Source: a virus
IMG/VR virus record: IMGVR_UViG_3300012964_000024
Location: 1-39,683 of that record
Strand: one strand, 5' to 3'
DNA length: 39,683 nt
Every line of letters begins with the position of its first letter. The first letter of the stretch is position 1. The position numbers and the translations under genes are program-made. Positions 2,625 to 16,965 of the stretch are shown here, piece by piece. The notes below the pieces were generated by a model. The model did not search any database. It worked only from the letters and a program-made list of their open reading frames with translations, and was not told the origin of the DNA.

Positions 2625-3308
2625 TCACTCTCCTGTAGAAATCACAGATGATGATAAAGTATTTTGGATATTAATCATGTATCTAACTATAGGATTAGCT
2701 GGACCTCCATTATATGCTGCTGCAAGAATCATAGGATCATTTGTATTAAGCACTTTAGACAACCACTGTAAATACTTTGCAGCATATTCAATATTAGTTT
2801 TAGGATTCCATAACTGCTCTTCAATAGACGGATGCTGTAACAATGATCCCCATGTCTGAGGACCAACAACTCCATCAATACGTAAATGGTGTGATGCTTG
2901 ATATCCTTTAATCACTAACATCAATGACACGTCAAATACACTAGATGGTCCTTCTGCATAGATGTAGCCTTTTTGAACCAGCATCTTCCGTATAGTTTCT
3001 ACAAGCGGTCCTTTTGAACCAAGCGCAACATACTGGAGTCTAGGAGACACATATGAGGTATCTCCAAAAGCATGCCTAATGGTGTCCGGCTTGATCTGGC
3101 ATACTCCAATCTCTCCATGCGCTCCCTTTACATTCTGTCCATGACTCTCATAAGTACAAATTGTAGCCAGAAGCCCTACAGGAAGTTTATACTGTTGTTC
3201 CAACATAGGAGCAAGGGATAAATAATCAGAAACATCTGATGCCATTGTAGGAAGGCACAGGCCCATTAATAGCAATAGCACCACACTTACTTGTTTGAAT
3301 AAATGCAC
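2625..3308 (-). CDS. Secreted lytic transglycosylase with inserted peptidoglycan-binding domain
   Basis: The protein has 227 residues from a GTG at 3308, chosen because GGAG lies 8-9 bases upstream. A signal peptide (residues 1-24, cleavage likely after TMA) implies Sec export. The goose-lysozyme/SLT-type catalytic region has YESHGQN with probable catalytic Glu54, then GEIGVCQIKP (65-74), and resumes at NPKTNIEYAAKYL and AAYNGG (198-203). Between these, residues about 97-158 form a PG_binding_1-like module (GPLVETIRKMLVQKGYI...IDGVVGPQTWGSLLQ). It should cleave murein glycan strands from the periplasm. The gene lies among replication genes, away from the holins, so it may be an exported endolysin or act in another stage. 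The start overlaps the primase end. Confidence 0.85.
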   Translation of the reverse strand: MHLFKQVSVVLLLLMGLCLPTMASDVSDYLSLAPMLEQQYKLPVGLLATICTYESHGQNVKGAHGEIGVCQIKPDTIRHAFGDTSYVSPRLQYVALGSKGPLVETIRKMLVQKGYIYAEGPSSVFDVSLMLVIKGYQASHHLRIDGVVGPQTWGSLLQHPSIEEQLWNPKTNIEYAAKYLQWLSKVLNTNDPMILAAAYNGGPANPIVRYMINIQNTLSSSVISTGE

Positions 3309-4102
3309 TGGTATATCTCCTCTTTGGACAAGTCTTTTGGATCTTTTAAATTTTCTATGAAGACTACTTTGACACGGAAAAATGGAGAAAGTTTCCTATG
3401 TAATTTAATAGTTGCCTCTCTTCCTGGAGTATCACCATCTAGCATAAGAACTATGCTAGTTAATCCCATCCTTGCTAATTGACTTAGACCATCATCTGAC
3501 AAATTAGTTCCCATTAGTGCCGCACAATACGCAACACCCGCCACTTTAATTGCAGATGTCTGGTCCTCCACCAGCACCAATTCCTCTGTAAATTTCTGAC
3601 CCAGAGGAAAATGAAGAACAGGGACGTTATTAAATTTTCTAAGAAGAACCTTAGGCTTTTCTGAATGAACTGCTTTAAAGTTTTCACCTATTAAATATCC
3701 TCTATAATCGAAGACTGGAAACTTAATCCGATTAATGTCTAGTGCATACACTATGCCCTGTTCTTCTAATTCCTGTTCTGATATATCGTACTTCCTAAAC
3801 TTATCTTCCCATAGGTCCTGTGGAATCTTTGTGATAACTCCAGAATATGCCTTGTCTTTAGGAGATAATGCTTTGGAAGATTTACCAACCACTGAAACAT
3901 TAGTTAGGCAATTGCCTGCTACTCCACACGATGCCCTATGGCAATTGAATTTTATCTCTCCTGTATTAAATAAAGAGATAACCATGCTCTGCTCATTACT
4001 TGTTCCTCCATTACATGCTGGACAGACAGCTCGCATACTAGTCTCTACTTGGAGGTCTTGCGATAGTTCCTGTATCTTTTGTATCAAAGACCCATTTTGC
4101 AT
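3287..4102 (-). CDS. DNA primase (zinc-finger + TOPRIM)
   Basis: The protein has 271 residues from the ATG at 4102 (GGAG 9 bases upstream), chosen over a GTG at 4117. The N-terminal zinc-binding motif has Cys27, Cys30, Cys54 and Cys59 (CPAC...CHRASC). The TOPRIM fold carries LVLVED with Glu179 and the metal-binding DGD at 222-224. This layout is that of T7-type primases without a fused helicase, so it should lay RNA primers on single-stranded phage DNA together with the helicase encoded further left. It overlaps the zinc-ribbon gene upstream by 65 bases and the transglycosylase downstream by 22. Confidence 0.88.
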   Translation of the reverse strand: MQNGSLIQKIQELSQDLQVETSMRAVCPACNGGTSNEQSMVISLFNTGEIKFNCHRASCGVAGNCLTNVSVVGKSSKALSPKDKAYSGVITKIPQDLWEDKFRKYDISEQELEEQGIVYALDINRIKFPVFDYRGYLIGENFKAVHSEKPKVLLRKFNNVPVLHFPLGQKFTEELVLVEDQTSAIKVAGVAYCAALMGTNLSDDGLSQLARMGLTSIVLMLDGDTPGREATIKLHRKLSPFFRVKVVFIENLKDPKDLSKEEIYQCIYSNK

Positions 4103-4226
4103 GACTATATACTCCACAAGATTTGCATATAATTACTTTAGCAGTAGAAGGGATAAGTAAAAAACTTCCACAGGAGCATTGCAATGTGTATCGTCTATCT
4201 AAACGATTGTATCTGAGTAAATACAT
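4038..4226 (-). CDS. Small zinc-ribbon protein, 62 residues
   Basis: The protein begins MYLLRYNRLDRRY and carries a CSC...CKSC zinc ribbon at about residues 17-37. Its ATG overlaps the stop of the upstream gene (TAATG), so it should be translationally coupled. Its last 65 bases overlap the primase start in another frame. It may be a split-off nucleic-acid-binding module helping the primase; that is inference from proximity. Function otherwise unknown. Confidence 0.6.
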   Translation of the reverse strand: MYLLRYNRLDRRYTLQCSCGSFLLIPSTAKVIICKSCGVYSHAKWVFDTKDTGTIARPPSRD

Positions 4227-4453
4227 TACTCAATCTCTGCTTCTGGATCATCATCAATAAGTCCAGAAGTATCATTCCATACACACTCTTCACAGGAATC
4301 TTCATACTCTTCCCATTCAACCCTAGTCATGCGTGCTCCACAATGAGCACAGTACATGGTAGATAAATTATCTACAGGTTCAGGATAGTCCTGTTCAGGA
4401 AGCTCCGCTTCCAAGTTTGCATATTCTTCTTCTAAGTCAAGTTTCTTTTTCAT
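4226..4453 (-). CDS. Acidic zinc-ribbon protein, 75 residues
   Basis: I chose the ATG at 4453 (MKKKLDLEEEYANLE); the upstream extension is AT-rich leader with low-complexity Ile/Tyr codons. It has a CAHC...CEEC zinc ribbon in the middle and a very acidic C-terminus (DDDPEAEIE). It is the first gene downstream of the bipartite promoter-like element at 4548-4574. It precedes the second zinc-ribbon protein and the primase, so it is probably a replication or transcription accessory. No family named. Confidence 0.65.
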   Translation of the reverse strand: MKKKLDLEEEYANLEAELPEQDYPEPVDNLSTMYCAHCGARMTRVEWEEYEDSCEECVWNDTSGLIDDDPEAEIE

Positions 4454-4547: not shown

Positions 4548-4574
4548 TTAGACAATAGGTTATGTAAAAAGTTC
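4548..4574 (-). promoter_or_regulatory. Phage-specific promoter candidate, copy 3 (leftward)
   Basis: On the minus strand it reads GAACTTTTTA, 9 bases, TTGTCTAA, then TGTATTTT. The two blocks and the 9-base gap match the rightward copies at 16885-16911 and 16966-16992 exactly. It lies just after the stop of the 4577-4969 gene and ahead of the zinc-ribbon/primase genes. Confidence 0.65.
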
Positions 4575-4576
4575 AA

Positions 4577-4969
4577 TTAGTACCCTTCAATAGCGTCTGC
4601 AACTGATGCGTCCTTTCTGTATAATGACCATAAACCTACTTTATTTAAAGTCTTTGCATTTCTAAATACTTTTTCTTCCGTCCATTTCATTGACTTACAA
4701 AAGTCTGCCATGTCTCCATCTTGTGTATCAGCCATTAGCAGCACAGACCTACGCATGTTATATGGTCCTTTAATACTAATAATATATTTTTGAAATTCTT
4801 CATAAAGCTTTAATTTTTTACGTCTGTATTGCTTTTCTGTCAAATCAGAATTTAGTTCGTATAGATAGAAACTACAGGCAGAAATAATTCCTATTCCACA
4901 ACAATGTGGGTACAAACTTGCCGCCCCTGTTACCCATCCAGCTTTTCCCGTAAATGTAAAATTAGTCAT
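4577..4969 (-). CDS. Hypothetical protein, 130 residues
   Basis: It starts at an ATG at 4969 with a clear AGGAG ribosome site 6 bases upstream. The N-terminal part reads MTNFTFTGKAGWVTGAASLYPHCCG, a Gly/Cys-rich segment resembling a short beta region. The rest is helical and charged (EKQYRRKKLKLYEEFQKYI) and ends with SLYRKDASVADAIEGY. It follows the class II amidotransferase in the leftward cluster, separated by a TTAATC palindrome. A role with the amide-ligase cluster is possible but not shown. No family recognised. Confidence 0.65.
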   Translation of the reverse strand: MTNFTFTGKAGWVTGAASLYPHCCGIGIISACSFYLYELNSDLTEKQYRRKKLKLYEEFQKYIISIKGPYNMRRSVLLMADTQDGDMADFCKSMKWTEEKVFRNAKTLNKVGLWSLYRKDASVADAIEGY

Positions 4970-4982
4970 CTTATCTCCTATA

Positions 4983-4998
4983 GTTAATCTAGATTAAC
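4983..4998. promoter_or_regulatory. TTAATC palindrome, site 1
   Basis: This is a perfect 16-bp palindrome, GTTAATCTAGATTAAC. It overlaps the stop of the class II amidotransferase gene and lies 14 bases upstream of the ATG at 4969. It is identical to the site at 13040-13055. Confidence 0.7.
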
Positions 4999-6475
4999 TT
5001 GTTAAAGAATTACCATACTTACCTTTAAATCCTGTTTCGTAGTGACCATAACACGTATCACATAACGATCCACTATTAGTCACTTCTGGAGCAGTATTAT
5101 TTATTACTTCTCTTGCTGTTAATTCTTCATCGCACCATCCACATCTAGTCTCAGTAGTTTTATCATTTACAAGTAAAATAGTTGTAGGATCAACTAGTAT
5201 GTATGATCCTTTCCCTGTATAAGATGCTATAACTGTATTAACCGTACCTCTATATAAATCCTCCGTAGATAGTGATAATTCTTTCGGTAGATTAAATGAT
5301 CGTACTTCAATCATACTTTCATCATCTGTAATACCTGTCAATGATGTTGGCGCTCCCTCTGTTCCTCTACGGAATATTTGAAGGATTCTAAATTTGATAG
5401 TATCTCCTGTATGATAATAGTCAATTGCATTAGATTCTGGTCTATCGTCGGTAGCTAGTGCGTATGAGACCAGTGATGTAAGTTCTGCATCTTTATCTGC
5501 TGAATCAGACTCAGTAAATCTACTTTGTTGTGCTTTTAATTTATAGATATTCCCACCAACTAATTTTTGTTTAAGCTCTTCTGTGACAGGAACTACCCAG
5601 CAGTATAAATTATCCTTAACATGTCGAAATTTAGCACAAGGCATTTGCCTACTAGCGAACTGTGCAACTCCTACAAATTCTGCAAAAAACTCCTCGTCTT
5701 TGTCTACTTTGATGTATCTACTAGTGTACGAATTTCCTCCTATCACTGGATTGTTTGGGGGAACATGTGTGGGAGTAGTGAAGATGGTAAATGGCTTAAT
5801 TCGTTGTTTTTCTTTGCTATCCAGAGGAAACTTTAAATGAAATCCTGGTTTAACCATATTGATTTCTTTTAAGTCAATGTTATTTCGTTCAGCTAACCAT
5901 AATAACATACCATCTTCAGAGGCAAAGAATAAATTCTTAGACTTCTTTGTAGTTGCAATGTATAGAGGGCGTGAATCATTTCTAGCAGCATTTAAAGTTT
6001 GGTCATTAGCGTTATACCATAATAGTGCATATGATCCAGACAATAACTCTAGTGTTTCTTTCTCCCCTTTGGTTGCCATACATATAGCAATAGCAGTAGA
6101 ATCATGTGTATTGTAAGGAACTCCAAGAGAGTGAATTTGATTAATAACTCCATTGTGTGCAAGTGTAATATGTTCATGCACTACAGGATGTGATGTTTCA
6201 ATACTATTACCTCCATTGGTAGAAGCTCTATTATGAATGATTCCAAACACTGATTTATCATTTGCTCCAAGCATTGATTTAGTAGGAATTAACTGTGCTA
6301 AGTCCCATCCCGGTAATGGACGTTTATAAATAGATGTTTCTCCTTTCTCTCCAACTAAAAATAATCCAGACCCATCTGTTCCTCGTAGAGAATTTGCAAC
6401 AAGACTATTTCCAACAAAATTATTAATGTTAAGTTTGATAATATCTCGATTAATAAATCCTACAAGTCCACACAT
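4994..6475 (-). CDS. Class II glutamine amidotransferase with C-terminal zinc ribbon
   Basis: The protein has 493 residues. The N-terminal Ntn-type glutaminase domain has Cys2 as nucleophile (MCGLVGF) and LRGTDGSG at about 31-38. It also has HNRASTNG and LAHNGVINQ, which supplies the oxyanion-hole Asn-Gly, as in the GlmS/PurF glutaminase family. It should release ammonia from glutamine. The sugar-isomerase or PRTase half is absent. Instead, about 260 unrecognised residues follow, ending in a CGWC...CDTC zinc ribbon. It is the last gene of the amide-ligase cluster, with a TAATG overlap to the amidoligase upstream. The ammonia acceptor is unknown; a nucleotide or peptide carboxylate is plausible. 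Confidence 0.85.
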   Translation of the reverse strand: MCGLVGFINRDIIKLNINNFVGNSLVANSLRGTDGSGLFLVGEKGETSIYKRPLPGWDLAQLIPTKSMLGANDKSVFGIIHNRASTNGGNSIETSHPVVHEHITLAHNGVINQIHSLGVPYNTHDSTAIAICMATKGEKETLELLSGSYALLWYNANDQTLNAARNDSRPLYIATTKKSKNLFFASEDGMLLWLAERNNIDLKEINMVKPGFHLKFPLDSKEKQRIKPFTIFTTPTHVPPNNPVIGGNSYTSRYIKVDKDEEFFAEFVGVAQFASRQMPCAKFRHVKDNLYCWVVPVTEELKQKLVGGNIYKLKAQQSRFTESDSADKDAELTSLVSYALATDDRPESNAIDYYHTGDTIKFRILQIFRRGTEGAPTSLTGITDDESMIEVRSFNLPKELSLSTEDLYRGTVNTVIASYTGKGSYILVDPTTILLVNDKTTETRCGWCDEELTAREVINNTAPEVTNSGSLCDTCYGHYETGFKGKYGNSLTS

Positions 6476-7401
6476 TAGAATTCTCCACTGGTTGTTGAGA
6501 TACCTGCTTTAGGCAAATGTTTATTAATCGTAGTTAATATATCTTGCTCGCTACTTGAATTAATAAGTAATTTTGAAATTGAGTTTCGAGCAATCTGTTC
6601 ACATAATGTTAAATCAATGTCGGAATGTGTTAACGGAAAATAGGGCAAAATCTCAGACAAGATAACTGTATAAGGGCGAGTAAAAAAGAATTTATAAAAA
6701 TCAGCCTCAGAGTATTGTTTAACTGTTCTGAATAATGCTAAAACTACTTTTATCCATGAGTATAGAGTTTCAACATCATTAGTTCCATAATGATGCCTAA
6801 ATTCAATGCTTCCCTTTTCTCTTATACTTCGTACATTCATTGCCTCATACTTAGCACCACTACTAATTGAATTAATCACATCAGCTTCATTTATATTTTG
6901 CATAAAAAGGGAAGATAATCGCTTTATACCTGAGTTATTTTTATAATAAGGAATACAATAACTATTATTCTCTCTTCCATGACCAATGTAATTAAAGATA
7001 TATGGCTCTAAAGCCAAATAATACAGGATTAATGTACGCAATTGCAATAAATTTAAAAACCTAGTGTCACAATGAATATGTACTGACGTTCTTTCAGAAT
7101 AATCTGGATTAATATTATTATTTACAAAGACATTATTAAGTTCCTCTAATGCCGCTCTAATGTCTCCTCCTCGTAACATCACTGATACGAATTCAGTGCC
7201 ATAGTTTCTTAAACTTCCATCTGTGGTTACGTCCCAGTAGTTAAGTAAAATATTTAAATCCTCGTTAACTATCTGAATATTCTCAGCCTCGATTTCAATT
7301 CCCACGTATTTATCAGACATAGGAAGAGAATGATCTACCTGAAACTGTCTCGCATCTGGCCTGCGATTAAACAAATTACCTAACGGTTTATCTAATTTCA
7401 T
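6475..7401 (-). CDS. Amidoligase (Amidoligase_2 family)
   Basis: The protein has 308 residues with the family's glutamine-synthetase-fold signature: YVGIEIEAE (32-40), TTDGSLR (59-65), TEFVS (69-73), SVHIHCD (106-112), NNSYCIPYY (145-153) and GSIEFRHHYG (197-206). These enzymes are predicted to form amide bonds between a carboxylate and an amine using ATP. Its start overlaps the 435-residue gene by 14 bases and its stop overlaps the class II amidotransferase ATG, so all three are probably co-translated. The substrate is unknown. Family assignment is from motif recognition. Confidence 0.85.
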   Translation of the reverse strand: MKLDKPLGNLFNRRPDARQFQVDHSLPMSDKYVGIEIEAENIQIVNEDLNILLNYWDVTTDGSLRNYGTEFVSVMLRGGDIRAALEELNNVFVNNNINPDYSERTSVHIHCDTRFLNLLQLRTLILYYLALEPYIFNYIGHGRENNSYCIPYYKNNSGIKRLSSLFMQNINEADVINSISSGAKYEAMNVRSIREKGSIEFRHHYGTNDVETLYSWIKVVLALFRTVKQYSEADFYKFFFTRPYTVILSEILPYFPLTHSDIDLTLCEQIARNSISKLLINSSSEQDILTTINKHLPKAGISTTSGEF

Positions 7402-8695
7402 ACGGCACCATCTGAGACAACATATGTTTATGTGGACTAAAGGGTTGATAAACTTTTAAATATGATTCTGATTTATGTAATTCTCCTATACATTTGTCCA
7501 TGTATAATAGAAAATATTTATGAGTTTGTTTATGATTTCTTTTAACTAGGACAATCTCTGGAGTTAAAATGATAAATGAATCTTTATCCCCTAAACCTTG
7601 TTCTATAGTTTTATATTGACGTGTTAAGTAGTCTCGAACAATGTCCTGTGTAAACATTGATCGTGATAAATATTGCCCTTCAGTAGTTGAAAAGTCCAAC
7701 ATCATTCGGACATTATTCGGAGAGAGCGCTCGCAAATACGTACCTGGAACATACTCTGCATAAACAAGCCTGGCAGCAGTGCTAGTTATAACCCATCCTA
7801 ATGGAGAATTAAAAAATACATGCTTTTCTTCAGAATAGGGCTCTGTTATTGTTTTAGCAGATTTTCCCGGAATATATAACTCATACTGAATATGTACTCC
7901 ATTTATATCATTAATAAATCCTGTAACATAAAATATATGAGTATTTTTTATAACTCCATAACAGGAACGATATCTGATAGAAAGATTGTGTGCTACATCG
8001 TTCGCTGCGTGGGAACTAGGTCGTCTACGAAGATTATCAGTCTCTACAGAAAATGAATTAGTATTAGTTTCCTCATTTCTATTCAATCGAACCCTATATT
8101 GTGAACTAGGTACTACCTGAGAAGCTAACTCAATAGGTTCTGTGGAAATATACGTGCTGAAGTACTCGTTCACCAATCGGGCCATGATGGCCGCTAGAGC
8201 TTCTACTCTTATTCCAATAAGTGTATTACTTCCTCCATTATCTCTACTATAAACATTTGTATAATTAGAGATTACCCTATGTAATAAATATTTTTCTCCG
8301 TCTGCCAATAAGGGTGCTGTTAAAATTGAGATACTTATTTCATATTGATTTGATGCTGGAATATTTTGTTCTGATGTCAAACTATTATACATAGATAAGT
8401 ATTCCATGTATCCTGTTACTCCGATTACATCACCTAATGCCGCTCCACTAATCTGGATATTACACTCTATCATACATTGACGTATAGTACTATTTCTATC
8501 CCAATGAGCAAACTGGGACGGACTGGCATCTAGATAAGACCTACGTAATACCCAATATAAACAATCGAAGGGAATTGACTCGACGCCGCCCTCGACAGAT
8601 ATTTCTATAAGACGATTTCTGACATTAGGATCAGTAAATACATATTCCCATAAACGATTTGCTACTACAGTTTCATCAGGAGTAATAGGACGCAT
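7388..8695 (-). CDS. Unrecognised 435-residue protein of the amide-ligase cluster
   Basis: It starts at an ATG at 8695, two bases after the COOH-NH2 ligase stop, and overlaps the amidoligase by 14 bases, so it is embedded in the cluster. The N-terminal half is helical; the C-terminal half looks rich in beta strands (YGVIKNTHIFYVTGFIND, ILTPEIVLVKRNHKQTHKYF). No signal peptide or membrane segment is visible. I do not recognise a family. Its fixed position between two ligases suggests it is a scaffold, an acceptor substrate or a further enzyme of the pathway; this is inference from context only. Confidence 0.75.
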   Translation of the reverse strand: MRPITPDETVVANRLWEYVFTDPNVRNRLIEISVEGGVESIPFDCLYWVLRRSYLDASPSQFAHWDRNSTIRQCMIECNIQISGAALGDVIGVTGYMEYLSMYNSLTSEQNIPASNQYEISISILTAPLLADGEKYLLHRVISNYTNVYSRDNGGSNTLIGIRVEALAAIMARLVNEYFSTYISTEPIELASQVVPSSQYRVRLNRNEETNTNSFSVETDNLRRRPSSHAANDVAHNLSIRYRSCYGVIKNTHIFYVTGFINDINGVHIQYELYIPGKSAKTITEPYSEEKHVFFNSPLGWVITSTAARLVYAEYVPGTYLRALSPNNVRMMLDFSTTEGQYLSRSMFTQDIVRDYLTRQYKTIEQGLGDKDSFIILTPEIVLVKRNHKQTHKYFLLYMDKCIGELHKSESYLKVYQPFSPHKHMLSQMVPYEIR

Positions 8696-8697
8696 TT

Positions 8698-9492
8698 TTA
8701 ATACTCCAAAGCAGGATGTAGAGGAAATTCTAAACTCTTACGTAAAGTTTTTAAAAACTTAGATGCTTGGGATTTATTATTGCTATTTATAAGAGTAACA
8801 ATATCTTCTGTTATATAATATTTGTGCAAGTCTTTATAGTTAAGTGCAACAAACATGGCTGAATCAAACATCCATTTTCGTCCAGCAGCAGTGTGCGCCC
8901 AAAAGTTTGAAGGAGTACGCCATTCTACTCCATATGGTTTAAATCGCATTGCGCCTGCTTTACCGTATAAAATCTTTCTTCGGATATCCTTATCGACTAA
9001 GACAGATTGCGTTCCGATAAATGCATCCATACAACGAATTAACTCAAAGCCATCTTTAACCGATAGCTTTGGAATACCTACATGAACATGGCCTCCAGCC
9101 GATCTAAGTCGGGCCAGATTGCCCGTAGGCTTTGTAAATTTATTAACCATGTGTGTCCAAGCATTATAGTCTGGATCACATCCAAATTCTTTAGCTAACG
9201 GATGCCGCAATTCTTTTTCAGAAAACAACATAGATGCAGCAGTAGAAAGAGATAGAAAAGGAGGCAATCTATTTTTTAATTCTTGTACAACAGTTTGAAT
9301 ATTAGTTTCCCAGGCACTAGAATCTTGTGCTGGATAAATATTAATTTCTGCTAACACATTATCTTCCTGTAGTGCTCCTAGATGGCACGGACTGGGACTA
9401 GTCTTGCTCCCTCCTACAAAACCAATTGCAGATACAGGAACCTTGCCTTTAACTAAAATAAATTCAACATCATTACCGATTGTAATATGCAT
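8698..9492 (-). CDS. phiEco32-type COOH-NH2 ligase
   Basis: The protein has 264 residues with motifs of the phage COOH.NH2 ligase type 2 family: TIGNDVEFIL (4-13), EDNVLAEINIYPA (43-55), GCDPDYNAW, LRSAGGHVHVGI (129-140) and AMRFKPYGVEWRTPS (181-195). The Glu and His residues in these motifs match the metal/ATP site of the glutamine-synthetase-like fold. It should couple a carboxyl to an amino group with ATP hydrolysis. It is separated by only two bases from each neighbouring gene in the cluster. The substrate is unknown. Confidence 0.88.
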   Translation of the reverse strand: MHITIGNDVEFILVKGKVPVSAIGFVGGSKTSPSPCHLGALQEDNVLAEINIYPAQDSSAWETNIQTVVQELKNRLPPFLSLSTAASMLFSEKELRHPLAKEFGCDPDYNAWTHMVNKFTKPTGNLARLRSAGGHVHVGIPKLSVKDGFELIRCMDAFIGTQSVLVDKDIRRKILYGKAGAMRFKPYGVEWRTPSNFWAHTAAGRKWMFDSAMFVALNYKDLHKYYITEDIVTLINSNNKSQASKFLKTLRKSLEFPLHPALEY

Positions 9493-9494
9493 GA

Positions 9495-10421
9495 TTATTT
9501 CTCCAGTTTATAAATATGATTTACTACTTGTTGCAATTTATTATATATTTCATAAGATTTTTCTAGTTTTCTAAAAAGACGCTCTCCTTCTATATATATC
9601 GTCTTATATGGATATAGACTATATAGACCATCCAATACATTTTTGTAAGATTCTAAAGGCCGGAGTATGCCTGCCCTCTCTGCTGGTCGTGTGAGATTAT
9701 TGGGAAAATTCAGTACTACAGAGGCTACCTGATCATTGAGCCTTTTTACAGTGGTTATTAATCCCATTGGACTATGTATACCCAAAAAATAAGTATGCAG
9801 ATTACTAATGTCTGGAGTATACTTTATTCCCTTTGTATCGCTGGATAATCGTCCTGTTACATGGTCTTGGTAAAGAGTAAATTTACTTGAAGGATCAGTT
9901 ACATAACCGCTCTGTAAGCTAGCAGTTAATGACACATATTCTGGAGATGTTCTAACTGGATCATTTTCATCTATTTTTGAATATCCAGTAAATGTTTTTC
10001 TCATATCTTGTGTAAAGAGCCAAAATAAGGCAGGAACTTTATAATCATTCTTAGTAATCTTAAAAATCATTGTACTAATTGGACGAGAATCAAAGTCATC
10101 ATAATCTTTCACATCAGATTCATATTTTAATTCTTCATTTTCTATATGAAAAACATCAAACATCCAGTTCCATTTCTTTTTAAATGTATTAAAAACTACT
10201 TGAGTAATAGGTGAGGGCATTACTAAAGCGCATGTGATATAAGGTACATTTTCTGAAAATAAGTAATCATGTGCCTTAGTGAGAAAGTAGTCTCGACACG
10301 TGCCATAAAAAAAGTCAGTTTGAGTATATCCCAATTTATCCTCATTAACTATCATAAAATTATTTACGATATTCTCTTGATATACACCTCTTCCTTCAGA
10401 ACGTATCAATAGCCTTTTCAT
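9495..10421 (-). CDS. Unrecognised 308-residue protein of the amide-ligase cluster
   Basis: The ATG at 10421 has its AGGA ribosome site inside a TTAATC palindrome (10424-10439). The sequence includes NVPYITCALVMPSPITQVVF, aromatic-rich stretches (WNWMFDVFHI, ALFWLFTQDM) and NFPNNLTRPAERAGILRPLESY. The C-terminus is a coiled helix (RLFRKLEKSYEIYNKLQQVV). No known catalytic motif, signal peptide or membrane helix is evident. It lies between the ATP-grasp ligase and the COOH-NH2 ligase with 2-3 base spacers, so it probably works in the same pathway. Confidence 0.75.
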   Translation of the reverse strand: MKRLLIRSEGRGVYQENIVNNFMIVNEDKLGYTQTDFFYGTCRDYFLTKAHDYLFSENVPYITCALVMPSPITQVVFNTFKKKWNWMFDVFHIENEELKYESDVKDYDDFDSRPISTMIFKITKNDYKVPALFWLFTQDMRKTFTGYSKIDENDPVRTSPEYVSLTASLQSGYVTDPSSKFTLYQDHVTGRLSSDTKGIKYTPDISNLHTYFLGIHSPMGLITTVKRLNDQVASVVLNFPNNLTRPAERAGILRPLESYKNVLDGLYSLYPYKTIYIEGERLFRKLEKSYEIYNKLQQVVNHIYKLEK

Positions 10422-10423
10422 TA

Positions 10424-10439
10424 GTTAATCCTGATTAAG
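10424..10439. promoter_or_regulatory. TTAATC palindrome, site 2
   Basis: It reads GTTAATCCTGATTAAG, core TTAATC-CT-GATTAA. It covers the stop of the ATP-grasp gene and the Shine-Dalgarno AGGA of the gene starting at 10421, so a bound protein or an RNA hairpin here could affect translation as well as transcription. Confidence 0.55.
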
Positions 10440-11222
10440 TAAATTGATAATGGCGTTTGCATAGCTATTTATTGTTTGCCCTTCAAGCCCAGGAGCAGTA
10501 TTAATTTCAAGTGCGTAAGCTTTATTCCTCTTATCAACAATAATATCCACAGCCCCAAAATCAAGGCCCAAAACAGAGACAGCAGACATAGCAAGAGACA
10601 ATATAGTATTGTCAGGCGAACAGTTCTCGCGGGCAAAGATCCATCCATTATTATGGCTTCTAATCCGTTTATTAATTGTTTTCGACTGCATTGCTTCCCT
10701 ACTCTTTCTTTTGCGTTGTGCATCTATCACCTTCCCACGAAATACATGAATACGATACTCTACTATCTTTGGAATGTATTGTACATATAGTTTGATAGGA
10801 TCATCCGCCCATTCCATATTTTCAATATCAAATAAGTCTTGAAAATAATAACATCCTTCGCCACTATGTCCCTTTAATTTTGTCCGTGCCATTACCGGAA
10901 CATTCCAAGATTTTGCGGTTTCTATATCAGTGGTCCATTTTGGAATGTCCCTAAATCTTGCGTGATTAAATTTTCTGAAAGTTTCTAGTTTATCTACCGC
11001 TGTTTTCACAGAAGTTGGAAGATTAACACAATTAGTAAAGTCCCACTCTGGAAGATTACTGTTACCCCAATTGATGATTAAATCAGACCATCGAGGTTTA
11101 TAATTTCCGTCGGGATAAACACGCAAAACTTTTCCTTCAAATTGTTTCTGTATTTCTTTTTGTAAAAGAGTCACAGAGGCAGAAGCAATATTGTAAGGAT
11201 AAAAAATAATTCTTTTATACAT
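10425..11222 (-). CDS. ATP-grasp ligase, RimK-like
   Basis: The protein has 265 residues. The C-terminal two thirds match ATP-grasp enzymes: VMARTKLKGHSGEG (110-123, nucleotide-binding loop), KLYVQYIPKIVEYRIHVFRG (144-163), NNGWIF, and the metal-binding VDIIVDKRNKAYALEINTAPGL (225-246). RimK-type enzymes join amino acids to carboxyl groups through an acylphosphate. The N-terminal segment (FYPYNIASAS...LIINWGN) resembles the pre-ATP-grasp domain. The start overlaps the class I amidotransferase by 8 bases. With the two COOH-NH2 ligases it gives this phage three peptide/amide-bond-forming enzymes. Confidence 0.87.
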   Translation of the reverse strand: MYKRIIFYPYNIASASVTLLQKEIQKQFEGKVLRVYPDGNYKPRWSDLIINWGNSNLPEWDFTNCVNLPTSVKTAVDKLETFRKFNHARFRDIPKWTTDIETAKSWNVPVMARTKLKGHSGEGCYYFQDLFDIENMEWADDPIKLYVQYIPKIVEYRIHVFRGKVIDAQRKRKSREAMQSKTINKRIRSHNNGWIFARENCSPDNTILSLAMSAVSVLGLDFGAVDIIVDKRNKAYALEINTAPGLEGQTINSYANAIINLLNQD

Positions 11223-11862
11223 GAATATACTCCTTTATAGCGTAATCAACAAAATCTAACGCTAAACGAAATCTCTTTTCACTAAAATTCATCATCTCTG
11301 GATGCCACTGAACTCCCAAACTATTGATTTTAGGAAAAAAAATAGCCTCTGGTTCTATGACAGTATTTGTTTGCTTAAAAGCAATATTTTCTGCGTATGC
11401 TAGAACTTTTTGTTCTTTTGTAGGAATACACATTTGATGGTGCAGACTATTTACCGGGAAAACAGTATATTTCCATGTGTCGTTAGCAACGACTTTGACT
11501 AGATGGCCGCCTACATGATTATTGACATGGGGAATAAGTGTACCACCAGTGAGTGCAGTAAGAAGCTGCATACCTCTGCAAATACCAAACATGGGAACTT
11601 TATGTTCTACAGCCCATAAAAACCATGATTTTTCCCATTCATCTCGTAGAGAACTACACTGTATGTATGAATAAGTTTCCCCATACATAGAGGGACATAA
11701 GTCCTGTCCTCCAGTAAACAACAAAAGACCAGGAACGGGATAAGTAGAGTTTGGTAAGTCATTAATTCCCAAACCAACTACTCGCTGAAAATTCTTTCCA
11801 AAAGTGCGGTGGAGAAGAAAATTAGCAGTGTGTTTATTTCCTAGAACGTACACCGTCTTCAT
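11215..11862 (-). CDS. Class I glutamine amidotransferase / C26-type hydrolase
   Basis: The protein has 215 residues. It shows the class I glutaminase triad: Cys95 in FGICRGMQLL, and His187 with Glu189 in LGVQWHPEM. FTGGQDLCPSMYGE (49-62) and NSLHHQ are typical of the gamma-glutamyl-GABA hydrolase (PuuD-like) branch. It may hydrolyse gamma-glutamyl amides or supply ammonia from glutamine to the linked ligases. It is the first gene of the compact amide-ligase cluster, with an ATG at 11862 and its stop overlapping the ATP-grasp gene. Confidence 0.87.
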   Translation of the reverse strand: MKTVYVLGNKHTANFLLHRTFGKNFQRVVGLGINDLPNSTYPVPGLLLFTGGQDLCPSMYGETYSYIQCSSLRDEWEKSWFLWAVEHKVPMFGICRGMQLLTALTGGTLIPHVNNHVGGHLVKVVANDTWKYTVFPVNSLHHQMCIPTKEQKVLAYAENIAFKQTNTVIEPEAIFFPKINSLGVQWHPEMMNFSEKRFRLALDFVDYAIKEYIHV

Positions 11863-11925: not shown

Positions 11926-12010
11926 TGGTGCTCAAGGTCGGACTCGAACCGACACGCTAAAAAGCAACAGATTTTAAGTCTGTCATGTCTACCAATTCCA
12001 TCACAAGAGC
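11926..12010 (-). tRNA. tRNA-Leu(UAA)
   Basis: An 85-nt class II tRNA with encoded CCA. The minus strand starts GCTCTTGTGATGG. The anticodon stem ACAGA/TCTGT encloses the loop CTTAAAA, giving anticodon UAA. There is a 13-nt long variable arm, and the T arm is GTCGG-TTCGAGT-CCGAC. It aligns along its length with E. coli tRNA-Leu(UAA). Two U-U mismatches occur in the acceptor stem (positions 5-68 and 6-67). It would read UUA, a codon favoured by AT-rich phage genes. It lies within the leftward transcription unit between the amide-ligase cluster and small genes. Confidence 0.93.
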
Positions 12011-13095: not shown

Positions 13096-13722
13096 TTAGA
13101 ATGATACCTTAGTTTCAAACACATAAGCATCACTAGAAACAAATGGCAATCCGTCTTTATGGGAATCAATTTTAAAATAGCTTATTCCAAAGTCCAAATT
13201 GCCCACTCTATACCCAAGACCCAACATAGGTCTAACCTCAAGCTGAGTAGAATGTGTTTCTGTTCCTAGATAATTTCCGTCTATATCGGAAAATTCCACT
13301 TTCCACATTTGTTTATATACAAACAGTCCTACTTTTCCGTAAAGACTGCCAATAGGCAAGTAAGACTCTTTAGAAACAGAAAACAATCCTCCTGTAATAT
13401 TTCCATTTCCAATCAGTCTGTACAGATGCGATCCGTTGTGAGGATACCCATTATAGGTCGCATCAGCCTCAGCTACGCAAATTGTGTGTGCTTGTCCCAA
13501 AGAAACAAATTCTGCTTCATATCTTAGGTCATGCCTTTTAAAACTTACTCCCACACTAAGTGTACTAGCTTGTAAATCAAGAGAATAGGGGTATCCTTTT
13601 TGATAGTATATCCCATTTTGTGGCTTGGAGTAGTTTGTAATGCCTGTACCTATATCAAAATCAAGGGCTAGAGCATTATAACTGCAAAACAACAAGAAAA
13701 CTGCAAGCATTAGATTACGCAT
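13096..13722 (-). CDS. Phage-encoded outer-membrane beta-barrel protein
   Basis: The protein has 208 residues from an ATG at 13722 (GAGGAGG upstream). A signal peptide, MRNLMLAVFLLFCSYNALA, is followed by amphipathic strands alternating with short turns (FDIGTGITNY, LSVGVSFKRHDLRYEAEF, YGKVGLFVYKQMWKVEF, RPMLGLGYRVGNLDFGISYF). The last strand ends VFETKVSF. A C-terminal Phe with alternating hydrophobics is the signal recognised by the BAM machinery. It should fold into the host outer membrane as a barrel of about 8 strands, as Lom-type or OmpW-like proteins do. Possible roles are superinfection exclusion or surface remodelling; those are inferences. Confidence 0.78.
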   Translation of the reverse strand: MRNLMLAVFLLFCSYNALALDFDIGTGITNYSKPQNGIYYQKGYPYSLDLQASTLSVGVSFKRHDLRYEAEFVSLGQAHTICVAEADATYNGYPHNGSHLYRLIGNGNITGGLFSVSKESYLPIGSLYGKVGLFVYKQMWKVEFSDIDGNYLGTETHSTQLEVRPMLGLGYRVGNLDFGISYFKIDSHKDGLPFVSSDAYVFETKVSF

Positions 13723-13740
13723 AATTCCTCCTCAGCTTGC

Positions 13741-14106
13741 AATAGCACACATTCAGAGTATAACTCACTAGCTTCTGCTAGTTTGCCGGTATCGTCTAGG
13801 CATTTAAGACCCAGCCCAATACATTAAATGTGGCTGTCACTCCCCGGCGCGGCCTTAGCATCCCCTCGCTACTGTGCTACTGCACAAGATTCAGAAGCCA
13901 TTTTATCTAGCTTCCTTAATTACCTGTTTTAACAGGGTTCGGGGTTCCAGTCACTTTTTCAAGCTCTGGTTAGATATGTAGCAGGTCTAAGATAACTATC
14001 GAAACATTATCTATAACTTTTTCGGAACATTGCGTCCTAGCCGCTATATCTTTTTGCGTATGCCGTGGTTATTTCGTAAATACTCGGTATTTTGTCCCTG
14101 CAAAAA
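13741..14106 (-). ncRNA. Structured non-coding block with hairpin array
   Basis: About 370 bases lack a credible gene. They contain five consecutive perfect hairpins: CTAGC/GCTAG (13768-13781), CAGCC/GGCTG with nested ACAT/ATGT (13812-13836), TGTGC/GCACA (13873-13886), GAAGC/GCTTC (13894-13914) and CCTGTT/AACAGG (13923-13936). A GCAGG/CCTGC pair closes 13981-14101. The block is visibly less AT-rich than nearby genes. A TTGACT-N17-TATAGT promoter upstream would transcribe it leftward, as a separate RNA or as the leader of the outer-membrane protein gene. No known RNA family recognised. Confidence 0.45.
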
Positions 14107-14122
14107 CTTAATCTAGATTAAC
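14107..14122. promoter_or_regulatory. TTAATC palindrome, site 4
   Basis: It reads CTTAATCTAGATTAAC; the 14-bp core is identical to sites 1 and 3. On the minus strand it is followed by GTTTTT, so in RNA it could also act as a weak hairpin-plus-U-run terminator. Confidence 0.65.
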
Positions 14123-14191
14123 TAAATTAAATCTTTGGACAGACTGCGCCCCGCGACCGCTCACCACAACCGGAGTCCGGCGCATATAAAT

Positions 14192-14220
14192 ACTATAACA
14201 TATATATCCCCTGAAGTCAA
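14192..14220 (-). promoter_or_regulatory. Sigma70-type promoter
   Basis: On the minus strand: TTGACT, 17-base spacer, TATAGT. It is placed directly after the stop of the 35-residue gene. Transcription would start near 14185, run through a GCGCC/GGCGC stem (14146-14183) and palindrome 4, then into the structured block and the outer-membrane protein gene. Confidence 0.7.
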
Positions 14221-14232
14221 GGGACATAGATT

Positions 14233-14340
14233 TTATAGTGATCTATTAGTAATAGCTTTTACAATCCACACCGTGCCCACTAAAACAAATGCTAGCCATG
14301 TTGCAAAATCTATACATAAGTTTATCGTATGTTGATCCAT
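14233..14340 (-). CDS. Tiny membrane protein, 35 residues
   Basis: The product is MDQHTINLCIDFATWLAFVL followed by VGTVWIVKAITNRSL, one hydrophobic helix of about 20 residues. The ATG at 14340 lies inside the 3' end of the preceding gene, a 19-base overlap, so translation is probably coupled; its own ribosome site is weak. No family recognised. Confidence 0.48.
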   Translation of the reverse strand: MDQHTINLCIDFATWLAFVLVGTVWIVKAITNRSL

Positions 14341-14432
14341 TCGGTTACCCAATCAATAATTTTGCCAATAAGAAAAATACCCCCACAAATTACAAATGTG
14401 TAGGCTAAATTCAAAAAATCATTATGTGACAT
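14322..14432 (-). CDS. Tiny membrane protein, 36 residues
   Basis: The ATG at 14432 follows a strong GAGGAGG ribosome site. The product begins MSHNDFLNLAYTFVICGGIF and ends KIIDWVTEWINIR: one transmembrane helix and an amphipathic tail. It is the middle member of a run of small leftward genes. Function unknown. Confidence 0.6.
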   Translation of the reverse strand: MSHNDFLNLAYTFVICGGIFLIGKIIDWVTEWINIR

Positions 14433-14441
14433 ATTTCCTCC

Positions 14442-14633
14442 TCATAGATTATATAGTGTGGTCATCTTAACGTTTCCACAGTCCATCAAATGCTCATTAT
14501 TCCACTCAACAGCCATGACCCATTCTAGAAAACATGGAGATACAATTGCGTCATTTCCTTTGGAATCTTTACCAAAGACAATGTAAAAAATTGGTGCTTT
14601 CTCATCATCATAGAACGGCACTTTGATTCCCAT
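14442..14633 (-). CDS. Hypothetical protein, 63 residues
   Basis: The ATG at 14633 follows AGGAG with an 8-base spacer. The product begins MGIKVPFYDDEKAPIFYIVF and continues GKDSKGNDAIVSPCFLEWVM. It is soluble-looking and probably a small mixed alpha/beta fold. It sits 9 bases ahead of the next tiny gene in the same unit. No family recognised. Confidence 0.6.
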   Translation of the reverse strand: MGIKVPFYDDEKAPIFYIVFGKDSKGNDAIVSPCFLEWVMAVEWNNEHLMDCGNVKMTTLYNL

Positions 14634-14792
14634 AAAATTCTCCTGTTAAGGCGATTCGGGACTGGCTGGCCGGATAGCTAATCCGTTTAACCCATTACTT
14701 TGCCCAAGTAACGTATTTGCAGGCACCACGAGCCAGTCCTTCCTCGACAAGCCAGTTTTAGGAACGGAGCCGAAACCCTTGCTTGCGAGACT
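14634..14792 (-). ncRNA. Structured leader with two alternative pairings
   Basis: This gene-free block has ACTGGCT (14661-14667), which can pair with either of two AGCCAGT copies (14731-14737 within a 9-bp match, and 14750-14756). An internal hairpin TTACTT/AAGTAA lies at 14695-14711. It precedes the ribosome site of the 63-residue gene. The mutually exclusive pairings resemble an attenuator or riboswitch expression platform, but no known family is recognised. A weak TTAATC-like site lies at 14678-14690. Confidence 0.35.
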
Positions 14793-14972
14793 TTAATGCT
14801 TTGTATCAGTGATCGTTAGAGCTTCGATCAATTCCACTTTGATCCCCTGATTTCTCCAGTACAGAATCTCAGTTTCTACCTGAGTCCTGTCCGAATCATC
14901 ATAGTACACCATAGTCGGCTTAGGCATTGATGGCCCAGCATACACTTTAAGGACGAATACAGGCATAAGCAT
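14793..14972 (-). CDS. Hypothetical protein, 59 residues
   Basis: The ATG at 14972 follows an AGGAGG ribosome site 4 bases upstream. The product has MLMPVFVLKVYAGPSMPKPT, then YYDDSDRTQVETEILYWRNQ and GIKVELIEAL. It looks like a small soluble alpha/beta protein. It is the first gene downstream of the hammerhead ribozyme, so its mRNA would be cut 5' of it, about 200 bases upstream of the start codon. No family recognised. Confidence 0.62.
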   Translation of the reverse strand: MLMPVFVLKVYAGPSMPKPTMVYYDDSDRTQVETEILYWRNQGIKVELIEALTITDTKH

Positions 14973-14991
14973 ATATCCTCCTGATGATACA

Positions 14992-15006
14992 TTAAACTAC
15001 GTTTAA
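14992..15006. promoter_or_regulatory. Second palindrome type TTAAAC-TAC-GTTTAA
   Basis: A perfect dyad with 6-base arms around 3 bases, 20 bases upstream of the ATG at 14972, next to a degenerate TTAATC-type site at 15012-15025. Possible operator or RNA hairpin. Confidence 0.35.
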
Positions 15007-15055
15007 CACATCTAATCTAAATTAAGTGTCGGTTACGCACTTCCGACGAGCTTTA

Positions 15056-15082
15056 TTTATAGCCTCTCGACCAAGCTATAAA
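15056..15082 (-). other. 8-bp stem-loop in the ribozyme downstream fragment
   Basis: Inverted repeat TTTATAGC/GCTATAAA with an 11-base loop. A second stem GTCGG/CCGAC lies just downstream on the minus strand. Together they make the stretch between the hammerhead and the next gene highly structured. Confidence 0.45.
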
Positions 15083-15168
15083 ATCGTGGGCATACACCTA
15101 TCGGGTCGCCGCTCGCTAAGTGTCTCCATGTGCCGTGTCGAGTGCTAGCACAAGTTAATGCCCTGCTC

Positions 15169-15227
15169 CGCGTTTACGCCAGGAATATTCCCCTAGCGTT
15201 TCGGCCCTATGGCCTCATCAGAACGCG
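15169..15227 (-). ncRNA. Type I hammerhead self-cleaving ribozyme
   Basis: Minus-strand RNA in order: stem I CGCGUU; invariant CUGAUGA (15215-15221); stem II GGCC-AUAG-GGCC; invariant GAAA (15199-15202); stem III CGCUAGG with loop GGAAUAUU and CCUGGCG (one U-G pair); then U-A and stem I AACGCG. The A of GAAA pairs with the U before the cleavage base, as required. Predicted cleavage follows the A complementary to 15175. All invariant core bases are present. The open stem is stem I, making it type I. It starts 6 bases after the stop of the 58-residue gene and would split the leftward transcript between two small genes. Confidence 0.93.
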
Positions 15228-15232
15228 ACTTC

Positions 15233-15409
15233 TTAAGGAATTACTATCACCGCATACAGAAAGGCAATAATAACCCCGATAGCGATTGTTGATCCTACTG
15301 TGACAATCGCAATGTCAAGAAAGATTTCAAACAATGATTGGTCCGGCGTAGTATCCGCCACAGTCTGCCTCGCGGCCTCTACAGTCTTGTGTAGCTGTTT
15401 GATTCTCAT
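15233..15409 (-). CDS. Small membrane protein, 58 residues
   Basis: The ATG at 15409 follows a GGAGG ribosome site. The product starts MRIKQLHKTVEAARQTVADT (soluble helix) and continues with a long hydrophobic helix (IAIVTVGSTIAIGVIIAFLY), giving an N-in or N-out single-pass protein. A TTAATC palindrome lies 20 bases upstream, and the hammerhead follows the stop. Unknown function; probably an early membrane protein. Confidence 0.62.
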   Translation of the reverse strand: MRIKQLHKTVEAARQTVADTTPDQSLFEIFLDIAIVTVGSTIAIGVIIAFLYAVIVIP

Positions 15410-15428
15410 TTTCCCTCCACAGATAAAA

Positions 15429-15443
15429 GTTAATCGGATTAAC
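15429..15443. promoter_or_regulatory. TTAATC palindrome, site 5
   Basis: GTTAATCGGATTAAC, arms separated by one base. It lies 20 bases upstream of the ATG at 15409. A TTGACA hexamer (15493-15498) and weak -10-like sequences (around 15459-15475) lie further upstream. Confidence 0.65.
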
Positions 15444-15538
15444 TATTTCCTTACTTCTAGTATGACAATAGCTTAACACATAACAATAACTATGTCAAGT
15501 CATGTCTACTTTTAATAACCCTATAATCTAAGGCTCTT

Positions 15539-15565
15539 AAAAGTATCCCCTCTTACGAGGGGATA
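15539..15565 (-). terminator. Rho-independent terminator (leftward)
   Basis: A perfect 9-bp stem, TATCCCCTC/GAGGGGATA, with a 4-base loop (15544-15565), followed on the minus strand by ACTTTTAA. It lies 22 bases after the stop of the 208-residue gene and should end that unit. Confidence 0.75.
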
Positions 15566-15587
15566 AGGGCAGGTAATCTTAGCTAAC

Positions 15588-16214
15588 TTACTGACTTACT
15601 GCACGAATCTGCGCGGCTTCCAGAGCTTCCGCATCGGTCATGCTTTCATTGTCCGACACATCGACTTTCGGCTCATACTTTGAAATGATCTCTTCCTGTA
15701 CTTCGGTAGGAAGCTTCGCAACCCGATCTAGCAGATCATTAAATAATACTTCCGTGACAGACTTGGCGCGCTGTATCTCCACATCAACACCATTCTCCCC
15801 TCCCTCGCCCTGCTCCATTGACTTCTTGGGGCTTTTGCGGGCCTTGACTGCCTGAGTCTTAAGCTCTTTGTACTGACTGTAGGACTCAGAATCATTTGGG
15901 ATAAGCCCAAAATCCTCCCATCCACGCAGAATCACAGATTTAGCATTGCTCCAAGCACCTGGCAAACGAACATAAGCTTGCCGTTCCTTCTTGGCCATGC
16001 CGGCATTCGCTGCCTTTTCCGTAAGGCGGGTCTTGCGAGCACTTTCTGCAGCAGCGCATCCGGACTCAAACTGATCAGCACTTGTGCATCCCTGAGCCAG
16101 AATAAAGAGATGTTGCGCTACTGATTCCTGTTTACCGCTGATTACCTTCTGTGCATTGTCCGCCTCAGCGAGCACGGAGTTAAAGGTAATTTCCTGCTTC
16201 TTTTCCTGTGTCAT
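15588..16214 (-). CDS. Hypothetical early protein, 208 residues
   Basis: It starts at an ATG at 16214. The protein is helical and charged: VLAEADNAQKVISGKQES, AESARKTRLTEKAANAGMAK, KERQAYVRLPGAWSNAKSVI, then a basic linker (KARKSPKKS) and an acidic C-terminus. It is alone between a good sigma70-type promoter (16321-16349) and a terminator, so it is probably expressed early and strongly. A TTAATC site lies in its leader. Less AT-rich than the neighbouring small genes. No domain recognised. Confidence 0.72.
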   Translation of the reverse strand: MTQEKKQEITFNSVLAEADNAQKVISGKQESVAQHLFILAQGCTSADQFESGCAAAESARKTRLTEKAANAGMAKKERQAYVRLPGAWSNAKSVILRGWEDFGLIPNDSESYSQYKELKTQAVKARKSPKKSMEQGEGGENGVDVEIQRAKSVTEVLFNDLLDRVAKLPTEVQEEIISKYEPKVDVSDNESMTDAEALEAAQIRAVSQ

Positions 16215-16240
16215 GGTTAAACCCTCGTAATTGACAGACT

Positions 16241-16267
16241 AGCTCAGTATGAGCTAATCCGATTAAG
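16241..16267. promoter_or_regulatory. TTAATC palindrome, site 6, with adjoining hairpin
   Basis: CTAATCCGATTAAG (16254-16267) adjoins the inverted repeat AGCTCA/TGAGCT (16241-16255). Both lie in the leader between the promoter at 16321-16349 and the ATG at 16214. Confidence 0.55.
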
Positions 16268-16320
16268 TGGATTTAGCCAATCAACCTGCCCAAATTGTAA
16301 AAGAACGTATTACAGGGATT

Positions 16321-16349
16321 ACTATAAACCTAATCTTTATCTGTGTCAA
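16321..16349 (-). promoter_or_regulatory. Consensus sigma70 promoter
   Basis: Minus strand TTGACA, 17-base spacer, TATAGT. It overlaps the last codons of the 31-residue gene. It should drive the 208-residue gene and would be read by host RNA polymerase. Confidence 0.8.
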
Positions 16350-16425
16350 GCATTGATGCAATCACCCTAACAACAATCGCCAAGATGATTACAATCAACA
16401 TCAGAGCACGAAAAAGGTAATTCAT
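16330..16425 (-). CDS. Tiny membrane protein, 31 residues
   Basis: The product is MNYLFRALMLIVIILAIVVR followed by VIASMLDTDKD, almost entirely one transmembrane helix with a short charged tail. The ATG at 16425 follows AAGGTG. A promoter for the next gene is embedded in its 3' end. Function unknown. Confidence 0.58.
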   Translation of the reverse strand: MNYLFRALMLIVIILAIVVRVIASMLDTDKD

Positions 16426-16478
16426 AGTATCACCTTGAGTACATTGTTTCACAGTGTTTGCATTGTGTCACGCGTAAT

Positions 16479-16492
16479 CTAATCCGATTAAG
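16479..16492. promoter_or_regulatory. TTAATC palindrome, site 7
   Basis: CTAATCCGATTAAG, identical to the core of site 6. On the minus strand it lies about 10 bases downstream of an extended -10 (TGG-TATAAA, 16502-16510). Confidence 0.6.
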
Positions 16493-16501
16493 CTAAATGT
16501 T

Positions 16502-16510
16502 TTTATACCA
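16502..16510 (-). promoter_or_regulatory. Extended -10 promoter element
   Basis: Minus strand TGG-TATAAA without a convincing -35. It would transcribe through site 7 toward the 31-residue gene. Confidence 0.4.
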
Positions 16511-16554
16511 GGATTAATAAGATTAATGATATAGTGCTTCTCACGCGCGCGCGT

Positions 16555-16583
16555 ATTATAAGGAATAGCAATTAGTGTGCCAG
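16555..16583 (-). promoter_or_regulatory. Sigma70-like promoter
   Basis: Minus strand CTGGCA, 17-base spacer, perfect TATAAT. It lies upstream of the extended -10 at 16502-16510 and would drive the same leftward unit. Confidence 0.5.
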
Positions 16584-16807
16584 GTAGTGTGATCTGATTA
16601 GACTAATATAGTGTGACCGACTTTAAATCATCCTATCCCACTATAAATAATTCTTATAGAAAATCTTAGCCACCCCCCGAGGGGAAATTTAGGAATGTCA
16701 TATTGATTAGTACCTTACATTCGACGGTTATATAAATTTCTAAGGTCCAAAAAGGGCTAAAATTAGAAAACTCGTGGCAAACTTTACCCAAAACTATTAC
16801 CTAAATA

Positions 16808-16823
16808 CTTAATCTAGATTAAC
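16808..16823. promoter_or_regulatory. TTAATC palindrome, site 8
   Basis: CTTAATCTAGATTAAC, the same 16 bases as site 4. On the minus strand it begins 4 bases downstream of the extended -10 at 16828-16836, so it would cover the transcription start. Confidence 0.68.
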
Positions 16824-16827
16824 TTTT

Positions 16828-16836
16828 ACTATACCA
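16828..16836 (-). promoter_or_regulatory. Extended -10 promoter element
   Basis: Minus strand TGG-TATAGT. No good -35 at the usual distance; a TTGACA occurs only 8 bases upstream. It is the rightmost leftward promoter candidate. Confidence 0.5.
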
Positions 16837-16884
16837 AACCTTGTCAAGCCCCCTAAATGAAATAAATATTTTTACTTTCATAGG

Positions 16885-16911
16885 GAACTTTTTATGATTC
16901 TTGTTGTCTAA
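16885..16911 (+). promoter_or_regulatory. Phage-specific promoter candidate, copy 1 (rightward)
   Basis: GAACTTTTTA, 9 bases, TTGTCTAA, then GTA. It is 81 bases upstream of copy 2, in front of the late operon. Confidence 0.65.
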
Positions 16912-16965
16912 GTACTAGTAAGATTACGATTTACAACATCTCTAAAATATATTTTTTATTTTGCG

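Follow-up and report, generated by a model that had tools for sequence, protein, structure and literature searches.

Sigma-E-like promoters ahead of the primase and late operons of a phage lineage suggest a switch run by a host envelope-stress sigma factor

Results and Discussion

The replication and late genes of the virus studied here are probably transcribed with host sigma-E (RpoE) or a close ECF sigma factor, which would act as the middle/late switch. The window, i.e., the whole stretch of DNA that was analysed, is a 39,683-base virus record, and relatives of its terminase were sought in viral contigs. A bipartite element lies both at the primase operon and ahead of the late operon of the window, and its architecture, as read from the sequence, is that of an ECF/sigma-E (RpoE) promoter. 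The computation yielded the motif with its fixed spacer, placement and conservation and its identity with cellular ECF promoters, and it detected no sigma factor encoded by the phages. The actual binding of sigma-E, the early/late timing and the host are what we infer. The following sites were located in the window:

4548-4575, minus strand: sigma-E-like promoter P3, TGAACTT-N15-GTCTAA, facing the zinc-ribbon/primase operon
16884-16911, plus strand: sigma-E-like promoter P1, perfect GGAACTT-N15-GTCTAA, late operon
16965-16992, plus strand: sigma-E-like promoter P2, perfect GGAACTT-N15-GTCTAA, late operon; the ATG at 17120 lies 128 nt on
3368-3395, minus strand: weaker sigma-E-like site P4, GAAACTT-N15-GTCAAA, within the primase gene, at its 3' end, and upstream of the SLT-endolysin gene
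3484-3511, minus strand: possible weak site P5, GGAACTA-N15-GTCTAA, matrix score 14.9, also in the primase gene

These sites lie among the following genes:

2625-3308, minus strand: endolysin with SLT and PG_binding_1 domains
3287-4117, minus strand: DNA primase (PHROG_47, E 7e-26)
4226-4453, minus strand: zinc-ribbon protein, first gene behind P3, with a homologue in the related genome G001
4577-4969, minus strand: 130-aa ORF whose stop lies directly before P3; the G001 homologue is 23% identical
4994-11862, minus strand: early cluster with class-II glutamine amidotransferase, amidoligase, COOH-NH2 ligase, RimK-like ATP-grasp and C26 GATase
18965-20413, plus strand: terminase large subunit, late operon (PHROG_38, E 2e-80)

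The element in the window

On the minus strand, positions 4575..4548 read TGAACTT-N15-GTCTAA. Divided into three parts of nine bases, positions 4574..4548 (in full GAACTTTTTACATAACCTATTGTCTAA) give GAACTTTTT-ACATAACCT-ATTGTCTAA, and the plus-strand copies give GAACTTTTT-ATGATTCTT-GTTGTCTAA at +16885 and GAACTTTTC-CTGTTTTTA-GTTGTCTAA at +16966. The original prediction had described two blocks with a 9-base spacing on the opposite strand, behind a stop codon and ahead of the zinc-ribbon/primase genes, and both the blocks and their placement were confirmed: P3 directly follows the TAA stop of the 130-aa ORF, and 95 nt separate it from the ATG (4453) of the zinc-ribbon ORF. The natural blocks are GGAACTT and GTCTAA, 15 nt apart, with a shared core of (G/T)GAACTT-N15-GTCTAA. 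In the -35 block the AAC core is intact; P1 and P2 are perfect, and P3 keeps GAACTT with the first G replaced by T. The -10 block is GTCTAA in P1 to P3 and GTCAAA in P4, so the C at the melting position is present, and the spacer of all four sites is 15 nt, equal to that of cellular sigma-E promoters.

Searching the window for GGAACTT-N15/16-GTCTAA returned two perfect and two one-mismatch matches, against 0.017 and 0.12 expected from an order-3 Markov model of the window. With a matrix derived from 58 phage sites outside the window, P1, P2 and P3 ranked first to third of about 79,000 positions (scores of 37.7, 36.8, and 25.3; mean -38, sd 10). P4, at (-)3395, was fourth with a score of 21.7, well above the remaining positions, and P5 may be a chance match. 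It is extremely unlikely that the boxes as a whole are a chance resemblance in AT-rich DNA and that the primase genes are reached only by read-through from upstream. The leader behind P3 is indeed extremely AT-rich, early promoters upstream could read through, and a poor sigma-70-like match (-4568, 9/12) overlaps P3; on the other side stand the 0.017-0.12 matches expected per window by chance and the conservation of the place in distant relatives.

Match to cellular sigma-E/ECF promoters

The boxes of sigma-E promoters are GGAACTT(TT) at -35 and GTCAAA or TCTAA at -10 (PMC1804206, PMC8103513, PMC2893595), and the C in the -10 element is required in sigma-E/ECF promoters (PMC8103513). Of 30 rpoE loci taken at random from Gammaproteobacteria, 15 had any match upstream of the gene, and in 12 of these the best one had the 15-nt spacer. 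The E. coli rpoE promoter, GGAACTTTACAAAAACGAGACACTCTAA, corresponds to GGAACTT-N15-CTCTAA, and that of micA, TGAACTCTTTCTTCCCAGGCGAGTCTGA, to TGAACTC-N15-GTCTGA, so the T-for-G start of P3 is also found in a sigma-E promoter of E. coli. The phage element thus shares with the RpoE-dependent promoters of Gammaproteobacteria (rpoE, micA, rybB) the -35 GGAACTT(TT), the -10 GTC(T/A)(A/G)A and the 15-nt spacer, and with micA the TGAACT start (PMC1804206), whereas here it is phage replication and late genes that sit behind the boxes, at a higher copy density. The phage sites are both denser and nearer to consensus than the cellular ones: 1-3 perfect copies were present in each of the 10 cellular genomes checked, compared with several near-perfect copies per 40-60 kb in the phages.

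The strict 20-base motif had 11 matches in 84,980 bacterial and archaeal genomes. Three MAGs (L093, L094, and L095) carry the exact motif 37-45 nt upstream of a gene for an ECF sigma factor (PF04542 E 1e-16; sigma-70 region 2/4) with a zf-HC2 anti-sigma gene behind it, a placement of the autoregulation type that is known from these MAGs and not from the host of this phage. A second copy follows about 1.1 kb further on, in L094 ahead of a gene for an LTXXQ/CpxP-like envelope protein.

The boxes could also be two half-sites of a phage activator or repressor with no promoter, as they are bipartite and fixed in spacing, but we consider this very unlikely. They are asymmetric and oriented with the downstream genes, both boxes and the spacer match cellular ECF promoters, and the sequence upstream of the phage sites is A-rich, like UP elements.

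Conservation in relatives

Among the relatives found by the terminase are G001 (contig 3300007352_000005, terminase 68%) and the more distant G005 (3300003885_000007, terminase 46%), and their shared proteins are 23-68% identical. A cultured relative is Alcaligenes phage vB_Af_QDWS535 (OK172329.1), an isolated A. faecalis phage whose gene order is that of the window: one strand carries terminase, portal, GroES, and capsid, and the other the replication genes and the amidoligase/ATP-grasp cluster. A primase-operon copy and a late-operon copy occur together in the window, G001 and G005. In G001, GGGAACTATTTCC...CAGTCTAAG at (-)45508 lies directly behind the stop of the homologue of the 130-aa gene and ahead of the zinc-ribbon and primase homologues, where the encoded proteins are only 23-44% identical to those of the window. 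The copies of G005 are TGAACTT-N15-GTCTAA at +10479, about 480 nt ahead of the primase, and one upstream of the terminase. The place of P2 is kept in G001 (+7196, a perfect copy), in G005, and in QDWS535 (+48814, also perfect, ~80 nt before gene 62). This late copy is the single strong copy in the QDWS535 genome, and none was found before its primase. Searches of viral contigs with the primase and with the first late gene returned no relatives.

Across an alignment of 10 copies, GAACT and GTCTAA are invariant. Copies recur between the amidoligase cluster and the primase, at the primase 3' end, behind polA, and before the late operon; the primase-side copy is present in nine genomes, and the copies inside the primase gene precede its stop by 76-121 nt in G017, G019, G048, and G049, the same place that P4 occupies. 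The contigs fetched with the motif share the primase of the window (13 of the 16 genomes compared), as well as terminase, DnaB, PolA, exonuclease, and the amidoligase cluster. Because these replication, terminase and amidoligase genes are held in common, the motif is, on gene content, a trait of a phage lineage. It is limited to sub-lineages, since 12 further cultured or named relatives (Zobellviridae and others) had zero copies at up to one mismatch. A perfect copy was also observed at 42621 (-) of G001 (L073 2621), immediately ahead of a tRNA-Arg gene; transcription would be expected to start near the tRNA 5' end.

Spacer and placement

In an exact scan of the viral collection, the right spacer accounted for 57 stretches and a spacer longer by one base for 3. 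Sixteen phage genomes together contain GGAACTT..GTCTAA in 35 perfect copies at spacer 15, as opposed to 0-1 at each of 13 other spacers. Intergenic sequence makes up only 14% of their DNA but holds 25 of the 35, and of 56 copies 50 were directed at the next gene. As selection guarantees one copy in each motif-fetched contig, the informative counts are those of further copies and of copies at other spacers, and they come from IMG/VR contigs that are partial and include some near-duplicates. The two copies of G010 were left out as a single coding duplication.

A set independent of the motif was obtained by terminase homology and comprised 83 loci, 53 of them with more than 1.5 kb upstream. A forward copy (up to one mismatch) was found within 5 kb upstream of the terminase in 9 of these 53 and a reverse copy in 2, and within 5 kb downstream of the terminase no locus of the set had a copy on either strand. 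In the upstream forward DNA the core GAACTT/GTCTAA gave 10 matches at spacer 15 and 0-1 at each other spacer from 10 to 21.

A host or a phage sigma factor

Sigma-70/ECF models detected nothing in the window, and nothing above the cut-off in 8 terminase relatives or 50 motif contigs. The left end of the window stops just short of the position where G001 carries dnaB, polA, and exonuclease and is therefore truncated, so that the window alone cannot exclude a sigma gene of its own. The complete QDWS535 genome and 15 other phages gave no match to the ECF model at E<=10, and the same model found the control, the sigma factor of phiEco32, at E 1.9e-6; the region-4 model missed this control and so says little. 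Nor did we find a regulator-like protein family common to the motif phages, in which the widely shared genes are those for replication, the terminase, and the amidoligase cluster. The original prediction had proposed that one phage-specific factor switches replication and late genes on together. Co-activation by one factor is supported because copies stand at both operons in the window, G001, and G005 and a primase-side copy recurs in nine genomes. The phage-specific nature of the factor is not, as the motif is the cellular sigma-E/ECF consensus. Since neither a phage sigma factor nor a shared regulator-like family was detected, the sigma-E of the host itself is probably the simplest reading.

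A diverged phage sigma factor or activator of the same specificity could have escaped the HMM search. We consider it rather unlikely that these phages have a gene for a sigma factor (or sigma appropriator) that has diverged strongly but keeps sigma-E-like specificity, a case like phiEco32 but unrecognised. ECF-like sigma factors are encoded by phages phiEco32 and 7-11 (PMC4331800, PMC7881722), and sites that are nearer to consensus and denser than the cellular ones would suit a dedicated factor. An early ORF of 159 aa in G001 (L001 6217-6696, minus strand) shows by eye an HTH and a sigma-2-like segment; it found no support as a sigma factor, being a singleton with no Pfam sigma match or HMM support and no relative elsewhere. 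The same ECF model that recovers the phiEco32 protein finds none in the 16 motif phages, and the lack of a common regulator-like family also argues against a phage factor.

Compared with known systems, the late promoters of phage T4 (TATAAATA, gp55) likewise provide a dedicated sigma specificity for late genes. They consist of a single -10-like box read with a phage sigma factor, while the motif described here has two boxes and a fixed spacer. Phages phiEco32 and 7-11 also switch middle and late genes by ECF-type specificity, but they encode their own sigma factor and use a TGATGT-type core (PMC4331800), whereas the phages described here yielded no sigma gene, their motif is that of the cellular sigma-E consensus, and the aligned copies do not share a core TGATGT/TATA motif of the phiEco32 kind. 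A link between a phage and RpoE was proposed for phage pf16, whose SspB would act on RseA/RpoE; it is a docking model of a host-like SspB, and no sigma-E promoters for phage genes were reported there (PMC5587285). Our literature search, limited to open-licence PMC papers and thus weak evidence of absence, found no paper that describes sigma-E promoters in a phage genome.

Proposed switch

We hypothesize that host sigma-70 directs transcription of the leftward early genes, and that RNA polymerase carrying host sigma-E would start at P3 (and P4) for the primase and replication genes and at P1/P2 for the late genes, so that the envelope-stress sigma factor of the host would become the middle/late switch of the phage. 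Two leftward promoters would fit the early phase, although sigma-70-like matches of this kind are equally frequent in shuffled sequence:

16321-16349, minus strand: sigma-70-like early promoter TTGACA-N17-TATAGT (11/12), consensus match only
14192-14220, minus strand: sigma-70-like early promoter TTGACT-N17-TATAGT, consensus match only

Promoters of the Bacteroidetes type were set aside in view of the Shine-Dalgarno sites at most genes of the window. The terminase search of genome contigs found no provirus that would fix the host of the window. In the cell, sigma-E is normally held by RseA, and its release is not explained by the use of host sigma-E, which counts against this reading.

A candidate for the release lies in the late operon itself:

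17120-17830, plus strand: trypsin-like (HtrA/DegS-type) protease, predicted membrane-anchored (PF13365 E 1.7e-16), first gene behind P1/P2

The best PDB matches of this protein are MucD and DegS (E ~5e-9). It aligns to DegS over the region of the H/D/S triad and has a predicted hydrophobic N-terminal helix at residues 2-25; the structure model, made without an alignment, has a mean pLDDT of 36. No PDZ domain was matched in its 236 aa. DegS initiates the release of sigma-E by cutting RseA, and a DegS without PDZ is unregulated. As a DegS-like protease lacking PDZ is the first gene behind P1/P2, a feed-forward loop is suggested by analogy, in which the protease would cleave RseA, free more host sigma-E, and in this way raise expression of the operon to which it belongs, of the primase operon, and of every late gene. 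We regard this loop as improbable, because none of the other motif phages has a protease of this kind: PF13365 was matched in 3 of 74 phage records, and the two besides the window are relatives that lack the motif nearby, so that co-occurrence of protease and motif, a weak proxy for RseA cleavage, was not seen.

Phages are known that change from one gene set to the next by their own sigma factors, polymerases, or activators. If host sigma-E is used as proposed, replication and virion genes would be run by the envelope-stress sigma factor of the host, which would be a different phage strategy. Phage development would then be tied to the envelope damage caused by infection, the stress state of the host would set latent period and burst, and sigma-E would be a possible determinant of host range or resistance. 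Dozens of related viruses with the same putative switch suggest a whole virus group timing its life cycle by a host stress regulator. The proposal can be tested directly, as one phage with the promoter, vB_Af_QDWS535, is in culture together with its host A. faecalis, and the fixed motif offers a means to mark such phages in metagenomes.

Other features of the window

The amidoligase/ATP-grasp/amidotransferase cluster, just upstream of the primase-operon promoter, is present in most motif phages, and a role in peptide tagging or in the cell wall is a candidate function. A tRNA-Leu (taa) gene at 11926-12010 (minus strand) lies at the start of this cluster. Between 13723 and 15587, 1.9 kb of the early leftward region hold only very short ORFs, and small genes or RNA elements are possible there. 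A complete-looking type I hammerhead ribozyme was noticed in the ORF-poor early leader at (-)15229-15170 (GCGUU-CUGAUGA-GGCC/GGCC-GAAA-CGCUAGG/CCUGGCG-UA-AACGC), with Rfam RF00008 at E 0.014, below gathering, and a fold of -23.6 kcal/mol (z -2.9); the Rfam scan of 13700-17200 gave nothing besides this sub-threshold match. The palindrome TTAATC-NN-GATTAA occurs at 4984, 10425, 13041, 14108, and 16809, in most cases in a gap between genes of the leftward early region, with looser copies at 1204, 3723, 15012, 15430, 16254, and 16479. The strict form was not found in the examined parts of G001, G005, and QDWS535, and the palindrome is a possible operator of a regulator. A GC-rich island at 1250-2500 (0.48-0.56 versus about 0.38 around) is likely a recent foreign insertion and contains a 51-bp direct repeat (1470-1520 and 2093-2143, 94%). 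Finally, a gene of the virion region includes a Gly-rich tandem repeat at 33633-33725.
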